A stretch of 64,000 nt of DNA from the NCBI RefSeq assembly GCF_036492835.1, contig NZ_AP025315.1:1-64000 (forward strand), in the 5' to 3' direction. Shown one piece after another: positions 56,105-57,820 of the stretch (positions are counted from its first letter, which is position 1; every line of letters begins with the position of its first letter). The notes below the pieces were generated by a model. That model did no database searches, had not been told where the DNA came from, and saw nothing but the letters and a program-made list of their open reading frames with translations. A program made the position numbers and the translations under genes. This DNA is from Fulvitalea axinellae. GTDB taxonomy: Bacteria; Bacteroidota; Bacteroidia; Cytophagales; Cyclobacteriaceae.

Positions 56105-56542
56105 CTACACAATTTCAATTAGGCGAGTCGGCTTTGGCTTGGCTTCTTCCCGCTTCGGCAAAACCACTTCCAATACTCCGCTATTGTATGTGGCGCTAAT
56201 ATCGTCTTCTTTGACCGAAGTCGGTAAGGTGAACGATCTGGAAAAGGATTGATAGCTGTACTCTGACCTCAAAACTGTCTCGCCTTCGCGTTGCTCATCT
56301 TTATCGGACGTTTCGCAGGAGATCGTTAGAAGGTTGTTGTTCAACTCCACATTGAAGTTTTCTCTCTCTAAACCAGGCGCGGCCATCGAGACCAAAAAAC
56401 GGTCGGAATCTTCTTTTACATTTACCGCAGGAACAGTGGTATTGGCACGGGAATGATTCCTGTTCGACCAATTAAACAACTCGTTGTCTAAGAAACGATC
56501 CACCAAGTCCGAGTAAGGGTTTGCTATTCTAACTAGTGTCAT
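56105..56542 (-). CDS. Small heat shock protein (Hsp20/alpha-crystallin)
   Basis: 145 aa, full length for the family. The alpha-crystallin domain spans ~35-130 (VPAVNVKEDSDRFLVSMAAP, GLERENFNVELNNNLLTISC, YSYQSFSRSFTLPTSVKEDD), with the conserved A-x-x-x-x-G-V-L motif (ATYNSGVLEVVLPK) and a C-terminal RLIEIV in place of IxI. An ATP-independent holdase that binds unfolding proteins in the cytoplasm. Confidence 0.93.
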   Translation of the reverse strand: MTLVRIANPYSDLVDRFLDNELFNWSNRNHSRANTTVPAVNVKEDSDRFLVSMAAPGLERENFNVELNNNLLTISCETSDKDEQREGETVLRSEYSYQSFSRSFTLPTSVKEDDISATYNSGVLEVVLPKREEAKPKPTRLIEIV

Positions 56543-56847
56543 GATGAATAATTTTATTGGTTAAACAAAAGTTTCATCTTGTGTATTGCAAACAGAAAAC
56601 CAAAGTTCAATTTCTGTAAAATTGTCACAATCAAGCCTTTGCCATTATCCTAACACAGAAAAATTGTCACTTTGTAGAGTCAGAATGTCATTATAAAGCT
56701 TAGAATTCAAAGTATGTCGGTCAATCTTCTTTTATGAAGATCATTTTACCAGATATAGGATCTCAATCTTTCAAACCTGAAACCACCGATATATATTGAA
56801 TTAGCCTTCACCACTTTTAAAACAACGTTTAGCGGGCTCCACTCATA

Positions 56848-57047
56848 ATACCCTAGTCATGCACTACCCGATACTCTCGTATAGGGGTGTCTTATACTAG
56901 GGTATAAGGGTATAGCCATACGAGAGTATAACATACCTTGAGACGAGCGTATAAGGTACCCCAAGACTAGGGTATAGCGGCCTACTTACACTACCGTATC
57001 AGTATACAGTTATACGGTAGTGTGGGTAAGTCGCTATACTACCGTAT
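56848..57047. repeat. Nine-unit array of ATACNNNNGTAT, period 23-24 bp
   Basis: Units begin at 56848, 56871, 56894, 56918, 56941, 56964, 56988, 57012 and 57036, with steps of 23 or 24 bases. The first 12 bases of each fit A-N-A-C-N4-G-T-N-N, six of them A-N-A-C-N4-G-T-A-T. Four-base cores: CCTA, TCTC, TAGG, GAGA, GAGC, TAGG, TACC, GGTA, TACC. Cores are complementary between units (1 with 3 and 6; 2 with 4; 7 and 9 with 8), so single strands could pair into several alternative stems. The last stem (57012 with 57038) is followed by AGTTTTTT. No protein frame. I know no family of this design. Confidence 0.75.
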
Positions 57048-57067
57048 AGTTTTTTGATAGCAACAAA

Positions 57068-57096
57068 TTAAAAAGACCCGCTTTTCGGCGGGCCTT
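57068..57096 (-). terminator. Rho-independent terminator
   Basis: On the minus strand AAGGCCCGC / GCGGGTCTT with a short loop is followed by TTTTT. It lies 25 bases past the stop of the HU-like gene at 57122. Confidence 0.8.
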
Positions 57097-57121
57097 ACAT
57101 CAAAACGGAGTGTGTACTGCA

Positions 57122-57820
57122 TCAAGAAACCGTCAGGTCATGCTCATAGCGTGCTTTGCGGATATTCTTGTTACTGGCAGGTAATGTCCGGACTTCCAAC
57201 GCATACTTACCCGCTGGCAATTCAGGCAGTAACGCCATCAAACGTTGAGGCCTGTTTTCGAGGTAGCGTAAGACCGTGAATTCGTGGCCGTCTTCAGACA
57301 AAAGGTACAGCCCGCATTCGGGATTTTCCGCATCCACCTTCAGGCGGTTGCCTTTTACGGTTATTATTCCTGATGAATTGATCGTATCATCAGACACACC
57401 GGTATTGCCGTTTTCCACAGTTTTGATACGTGCGTCGGTACTTTGGCTTTCTGTCTTGATCATCGAGATTTTCTGTAGAACTTCTTTGACTTCGTTCGGA
57501 GGTTGCATACGAAGTTTAAGTGTGTGGCGCTCTGGATCGAAGGTGTCATCTTCGCCCTCAAATACCCCTGAGATGGAATAAGATACATTAACCAAAGGCA
57601 AGCGTACTCCTTCGCCTTGGCTGATGAGGTCTTTGACTACTTCATGGTACTCGTTAAGTACGGCCAGAATATCAGTACGGGTGGTAGTGGAACCACGTTT
57701 TACCATCTCGGACACTACAGAATCCAGATCATGTGACTTGGCTATGTCTACTTGAGCGATCTGGTCGTTGGGGTTTTCGGCTGTAAGTTTGTTTTCCCTT
57801 AGATAATATTTTAAGCTCAT
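57122..57820 (-). CDS. HU-like DNA-binding protein with C-terminal domain
   Basis: 232 aa, Bacteroidota-type HU-like protein. Residues ~1-125 fit the HU-related DNA-binding domain (IDxxAKSHDLDSVVSEMVKR, then GVRLPLVNVSYSISGVFEGE). Residues ~135-232 form an Ig-like C-terminal domain of DUF4469 type (GIITVKGNRLKVDAENPECG, LYLLSEDGHEF). Such proteins bind DNA and occur in many copies in this phylum. The repeat array lies just past its terminator. Confidence 0.75.
   Translation of the reverse strand: MSLKYYLRENKLTAENPNDQIAQVDIAKSHDLDSVVSEMVKRGSTTTRTDILAVLNEYHEVVKDLISQGEGVRLPLVNVSYSISGVFEGEDDTFDPERHTLKLRMQPPNEVKEVLQKISMIKTESQSTDARIKTVENGNTGVSDDTINSSGIITVKGNRLKVDAENPECGLYLLSEDGHEFTVLRYLENRPQRLMALLPELPAGKYALEVRTLPASNKNIRKARYEHDLTVS

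Follow-up and report, generated by a model that had tools for sequence, protein, structure and literature searches.

Nine short, near-palindromic units stand in phase in an intergenic gap of the Fulvitalea axinellae genome. What kind of element is such a row? A preliminary description of the window (the whole 64,000-nucleotide stretch of DNA analysed here) offered three answers: phased protein-binding sites, a structured RNA with switching stems, or sites of a site-specific recombinase. Of those, binding sites appear to be the best supported, given that dyads are kept while spacers have diverged and that arrays of Bacteroides lack compensatory changes. A fourth possibility, a repeat without present function, has to be weighed alongside them.

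Results

A phased row of dyads beside an HU-type gene

The array comprises nine 12-bp units (56848-57047) of the formula ANAC-N4-GTNT, in which the dyad-symmetric half-sites ANAC and GTNT flank a variable 4-bp core (Table 1). Successive units start 23, 23, 24, 23, 23, 24, 24 and 24 bp apart, in agreement with the 23-24 base steps first reported for them. The row occupies part of the 579-bp gap 56543-57121 between hsp20 and the HU-HIG gene, which is where the preliminary description had placed it, and overlaps none of the listed open reading frames of at least 60 aa. Among the five window neighbours scanned, there is no recombinase, replication, repressor or HxlR gene. Sigma-70-like sites are close to chance level, at three against 1.9. 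Upstream of hsp20, the direct repeat AAAATTGTCAC occurs at 56618-56628 and 56660-56670 of the window, 42 bp apart.

Table 1. Features of the window array, its neighbours and the other arrays of the genome
Feature	Position	Strand	Remarks
Unit 1, ATACCCTAGTCA	56848..56859	.	Right arm degenerate
Unit 2, ATACTCTCGTAT	56871..56882	.	
Unit 3, ATACTAGGGTAT	56894..56905	.	
Unit 4, ATACGAGAGTAT	56918..56929	.	
Unit 5, AGACGAGCGTAT	56941..56952	.	
Unit 6, AGACTAGGGTAT	56964..56975	.	
Unit 7, ACACTACCGTAT	56988..56999	.	
Unit 8, ATACGGTAGTGT	57012..57023	.	
Unit 9, ATACTACCGTAT	57036..57047	.	
Imperfect long inverted repeat, units 1-6	56848..56975	+	Arms 58 nt, 72% complementary
Second inverted repeat, units 7-8 with flanks	56972..57039	+	Arms 28 nt, 86% complementary
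Six-T run after unit 9	57050..57055	+	Terminator-like with units 8/9
Terminator-like hairpin 3' of the HU-HIG gene, outside the array	57073..57096	-	
Gene for HU-type DNA-binding protein, neighbour	57122..57820	-	PF14848 (HU-HIG), PF18291, DUF4469
hsp20 (alpha-crystallin) gene, neighbour	56105..56542	-	
Second clear array (L010)	C1:1202214-1202423		Same period as window array
Third, degenerate array	C1:2533524		Found by model search

In the shuffle test that the preliminary description had proposed, the array stood well apart from chance. The longest chain of A.AC....GT motifs at 23/24 steps counts nine in the window and at most two in 200 whole-window dinucleotide shuffles; when the gap 56543-57121 was shuffled 5000 times, the chain never exceeded two. 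Single motifs are not more frequent in the window than chance would have them (114 against a shuffle mean of 101). The non-random property is the phasing of the motifs, not their number.

The cores are complementary between units, as had been noticed early on: eight of the nine have an exact reverse-complement partner, in three classes (CCTA/TAGG, TCTC/GAGA and TACC/GGTA), GAGC being left without one, and three complementary classes arose in about 1e-4 of trials with shuffled cores. Since each arm nearly mirrors the other, a complementary core also amounts to the same unit in the opposite orientation. The arms had been called constant as well as palindromic. Their near-palindromy holds, whereas their constancy does not: column 2 reads T6/G2/C1, column 11 reads A7/C1/G1, and unit 1 ends in GTCA rather than GTAT.

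Columns 1, 3, 4, 9 and 10 are identical in all nine units and column 12 in eight. When the units are aligned over 23 columns, these six dyad columns, which were picked post hoc after the array had been seen, hold 1 mismatch in 54 cells, compared with 72 in 153 for the other 17 columns; when the mismatches were scattered at random 20,000 times, six columns as clean never arose. The array is thus not an evenly decaying tandem repeat, which bears out the earlier remark that it is no plain tandem repeat, and the preferential keeping of its dyad columns is the chief internal argument for constraint.

Sister arrays in the same genome

A genome-wide model search of the kind suggested in the preliminary description, with 150 of 187 first-look candidates scored, yielded one clear and one degenerate array beyond that of the window (Table 1); the exact two-unit pattern matches only the window array and one other pair in this genome. 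A further candidate at C1:4015006 was discarded as a lone pair inside an apparent aldehyde dehydrogenase gene. The second clear array, L010, lies between genes for an HflX-like GTPase and a thiamine-diphosphate enzyme-like protein (names taken from the translations). The three arrays of the genome share no flanks, with no flank-to-flank match below E 0.3. The spacing, whose conservation the earlier account had made a point of, recurs in L010 and in the Reichenbachiella and Bacteroides arrays described below.

L010 is more homogeneous than the window array, with 0 mismatches in 48 dyad cells and 31 in 136 others. Its best-six-columns test is not significant (p 0.38); it has 12 clean columns, a count never reached at random. 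The two clear arrays can be aligned over their full length, and their unit-by-unit homology was considered and rejected: outside the fixed columns, units in register are no more identical than units out of register, so descent unit by unit is not claimed. The ninth L010 unit runs into a separate dispersed repeat, which is about 100 bp long by eye (L010:2410-2510, starting TAAGTACATCCAGTAAAATAGTTTATG), abuts the array and has about 20 matches in the genome (L020-L027, L029-L041).

Arrays and paired sites in the family

The relatives compared are family-level, none being of the same genus as the window's organism. A three-unit covariance model, run at E up to 0.5 with strict filters that may have missed weak arrays, matched 12 of 391 family genomes, the own genome included. 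Clear arrays are present in 1 of the 390 others, inferred to be Reichenbachiella versicolor, which has two at a 23-bp step; both end in a GGTACC hairpin and are more homogeneous at the hairpin end. In these arrays (L075:8189-8480, L076:6820-7310), units are near-identical by the hairpin and degenerate on the opposite side, as though each row had grown from one side. In the remaining ten matched family genomes, no array was seen. BLAST of the window array found no match at E <= 0.01 in 38 other relatives, and none among phages and plasmids.

The weak matches bring in a candidate binder. At 11 of 12 weak-match loci of the ten relatives there are two ATAC-N4-GTAT sites 18 bp apart, the twelfth having a single site, and 7 of the 10 loci searched for an HxlR-like KW.LPI motif have a readable one. 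Both findings would suit a window array that serves as an operator array of an HxlR-type regulator, or as a decoy for one. However, none of the four HxlR genes found in the own genome (E <= 1e-8; loci of about 3.3 kb) has an AYAC....GTRT site, on which ground HxlR was rejected as the binder; moreover, the neighbours scanned do not include an HxlR gene, and the sites of the relatives are spaced by 18 bp rather than 23/24. We consider this reading very unlikely. Several of the 18-bp palindrome pairs (L057-L062, L064-L066, L070, L072) have mutually complementary cores.

Arrays in Bacteroides

In Bacteroides sp. 519 (G405), ACACCCGGGTGT occurs 51 times and its reversed control not once. The 50 copies listed form 18 clusters, with all 32 within-cluster intervals being multiples of 23; extended at multiples of 23 only, 17 clusters comprise five units and one comprises three. 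Over 85 units, columns 1, 3, 5, 8, 10 and 12 are invariant, and columns 2 and 11 vary as they do in the window. None of the 35 core mismatches falls at mirrored positions, and there is no compensated pair. Outer bases do not pair within units (91/170 against 92 in shuffles), nor do spacers across the array (0.41 against a control of 0.43); for nested outer bases, pairing is slightly higher than in the control (0.64 against 0.54).

One array is flanked by the same pair of genes in sp. 519 and in sp. 51 (proteins 84% and 67% identical); no second gap common to both species was found when 18 loci of sp. 519 were compared with 8 of sp. 51. The dyads of this array are kept, sp. 51 has three units where sp. 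519 has five, and otherwise the gap can barely be aligned. Together, the lack of pairing or compensation and the keeping of dyads at an orthologous gap favour a DNA-level site and disfavour base-pairing as the selected trait. The strongest support for taking the dyads as putative binding sites lies outside the window, in these Bacteroides arrays.

The 20 neighbouring proteins scanned at the sp. 519 arrays have no Pfam family in more than two of them; a BT4734-like N-terminal domain is found in two (L174, L177), and thiG-like and thiE-like genes flank one array. At L163:1032-1427, an HU-HIG gene is located 46 bp from an array, to be compared with the HU-type gene beside the window array, although this may be chance. 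By eye, in several copies of L163-L180, the unit flanks carry degenerate 22-23 bp repeats (approximately TGCTTATTGCTTTTGTTTGGA), which run toward the dyads from the left side and are inverted on the other.

The period in wider searches

A search of genome_contigs for three AYAC....GTRT motifs at step 23 gave 85 stretches, with about 0.06 expected in random sequence by our estimate; since the pattern itself fixes AYAC/GTRT and the 23-bp step, the sharing of both by arrays of other genomes is partly by choice. The 80 loci examined fall to RUG10619 (17), Bacteroides sp. 51 (8), Bacteroides sp. 519 (4), Treponema (7), other Bacteroidota (37) and other phyla (7). By a mechanical call, 13 of them lie inside an open reading frame; among the rest with both neighbours, 16 gaps are convergent, 26 co-oriented and 10 divergent. 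Spacers look unrelated in 28 of the 80 loci, and many others are plain minisatellites. The 17 RUG10619 loci have 3-9 units, with 58 steps of 23 and 8 of 22, nested in a larger dispersed repeat whose flanks are mostly shared.

Is 23 bp a special period? The same three-unit pattern in viral_contigs gave 5, 5, 1, 2 and 4 stretches at steps 21, 22, 23, 24 and 25, so that the other steps match more often than 23, and the idea was dropped. Ten of these 17 viral stretches come close to plain tandem repeats, their first two spacers being alike to 83% or more. When 395 Bacteroidota genomes were searched in an unbiased way for two units with gaps of 2-30, six genomes had matches, at steps 16, 23, 24, 29, 38 and 42; the eight pairs outside the own genome are not above expectation (about 13 by chance, an estimate). 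These controls imply that the 85 stretches include ordinary minisatellites. Steps other than 23 bp also occur, and arrays are rare; between the array of the window and its counterparts in other genera, we hence claim analogy and not common descent. Another Bacteroidota genome (G566:C1:1741240-1741377) has a three-pair array of ACACNNNNGTGT at exact 42-bp steps, and four viral contigs (L187, L191, L194, L195) have rows of palindromes that step by 21-22 bp and have diverged spacers; these may be operator arrays.

Folding of the array

Could the row act as RNA? A structured plus-strand RNA (a small RNA or an attenuator), whose stems switch unit 8 between units 7 and 9 and which ends at the T-run, would account for several features. 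The plus strand has a fold z-score of -7.73 and forms two main hairpins; unit 8 can pair with unit 7 (12/12 matches) or with unit 9 (11/12), the 8/9 stem and the T-run together being terminator-like; and wobble pairs outnumber A-C mismatches in the plus-strand arms (6 against 3). Nested partner units agree at 42 of 48 positions, more than units in other orders do (permutation p 0.008; for the spacers, p 0.06), although it was the fold that supplied the nesting, and the agreement fits a hairpin or an inverted duplication equally well. On the other hand, the minus strand folds almost equally (z-score -6.31), as palindromic units would. L010 folds better on the strand opposite to that of the window array (-102.3 against -79.8), has 7 wobble pairs against 10 A-C mismatches on the plus strand, and is not followed by a matching T-run; over both arrays, such pair counts single out no strand consistently. 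Rfam gave no match at the family cut-off within 56300-57400 (the highest score being 20 bits, where 78 are required), and no likely plus-strand target gene lies downstream, as the plus-strand reading frames listed up to 62 kb all overlap longer ones on the minus strand. The absence of compensatory pairs in the Bacteroides arrays points the same way. Despite good folds and a T-run, switching stems thus fare poorly among the options originally listed, and we regard an RNA as improbable. We take the hairpins to be a secondary consequence of units that are near-palindromic and inverted.

Discussion

What, then, might the dyads be kept for? We hold with moderate confidence, on grounds of sequence comparison, that they are phased sites for a putative dimeric DNA-binding protein, carried by an intergenic repeat. 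We envision a minisatellite-like intergenic row of nine dyad-symmetric sites about 2.2 helical turns apart, each of which would most likely be bound by one dimer of a sequence-specific protein. Neighbouring sites would be close enough for cooperative assembly, and their spacing might serve the contact between neighbours. Conceivably, the row originated by duplication, partly inverted, of a single unit. It resembles a loose class of intergenic repeats built from units of about 23 bp, of which BrickBuilt, discussed below, is the described case. Two observations weigh against binding sites: the nested matching of the window units, which a hairpin or an inverted duplication would suit too, and the slight nested pairing in sp. 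519.

The main rival of the binding-site reading is that a MITE or minisatellite left a neutral remnant here, which owes its palindromes to its origin and was spread by transposition or template switching; BrickBuilt provides a precedent. Such a remnant would be at home in three intergenic places with different neighbours in one genome, and it sits well with the variable unit number and mostly shared flanks in RUG10619 and with a likeness between the window array and L010 that is equal in and out of register; inverted copying of units would even yield the complementary cores. It does not as readily explain why dyad columns are far more conserved than spacers, both in the window and in the 85 Bacteroides units, or why dyads are kept at one orthologous Bacteroides gap. 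Nor do the three arrays of the own genome have matching flanks, and no good IS5-type end lies nearby (at best 4/12 mismatches at the window array and 3/12 at the other two). We consider a neutral remnant somewhat unlikely, albeit to be taken seriously. Sites of a recombinase with core-directed pairing would match the near-palindromic arms and the variable, mutually complementary 4-bp cores. Yet this last of the original options finds little support, as no recombinase is encoded among the five neighbours and the units look too close together for strand exchange between neighbours; it is the least probable of all the readings weighed here.

If the dyads are binding sites, they could have a more general role. 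The arrays might be previously unrecognised nucleoprotein platforms: chromosomal sets of dyads at a fixed step of about 23 bp, along which a dimeric protein that evolves fast would form a short helical filament, in the service of chromosome organisation or insulation rather than of a regulon. This speculative extension, which we think unlikely as it stands, leans on the near-constant unit number in sp. 519, the orthologous place and the mostly unrelated neighbours. It would make the window array a nine-site member, and BrickBuilt a homogenised member, of the set. A corollary of the binding-site reading is that protein sites kept across species beside mostly unrelated genes would constitute a recurrent, unstudied DNA-protein system and not junk.

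Comparison with known systems

Several known systems share single aspects of the array. BOX elements of pneumococcus consist of end modules and a variable number of middle modules, which are longer; the RUG10619 elements follow the same module plan, whereas the window array shares no end modules with its sisters. Iteron and multi-operator arrays are phased at about two helical turns, as are the sites in the window, but no replication or repressor gene is found among the five window neighbours, and the viral arrays have steps of 21-22 bp. REPs are dispersed intergenic palindromes of 20-40 bp with GTAG or CGTC tags, regularly spaced in BIMEs (PMC2817692, PMC3733652). The window array resembles them as a dispersed intergenic palindrome and differs, as far as those accounts go, in being built from a 12-bp dyad at a fixed 23-24 bp. 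Searches of the open-licence literature brought up no description of such phased dyads; the nearest described arrays are the minisatellite inside a MITE of one oral species.

This MITE, BrickBuilt of Porphyromonas gingivalis, is made of tandem, always intergenic 23-nt units that vary in number, and has a limited host range (Klein 2015, PMC4596501). In strain ATCC 33277 it is present in 19 copies, with predicted long stem loops and bidirectional promoter activity, and its leader and tail carry IS5-type terminal inverted repeats (PMC4596501). The window array is likewise tandem at 23-24 steps, intergenic and predicted to form long stem loops; it too occurs in several copies with a limited host range, and unit number varies in the arrays of other genomes. 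The published 23-nt consensus, which itself holds 12-bp dyads in other registers, agrees with the window units at 12.0 of 23 positions in dyad register (null mean 10.0; 5/500), and the window array is the sole standout among four arrays tested. There are differences as well. The units of the window have diverged so that only the dyad columns persist, and a contrast of dyad and free spacer is not described in the accessible part of the BrickBuilt paper, which mentions dyad symmetry in passing and uses 'palindrom' 0 times (PMC4596501). Leader and tail are not shared between the three arrays of our genome, terminal repeats of IS5 type are matched only as stated above, and the reported 19 copies compare with two clear arrays and one degenerate array here (150/187 candidates scored). 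Since these tests of leader and tail, terminal repeats and copy number failed, we do not class the window array as a BrickBuilt member. Our best reading, drawn from analogy, is that it may work like the core of a BrickBuilt repeat.
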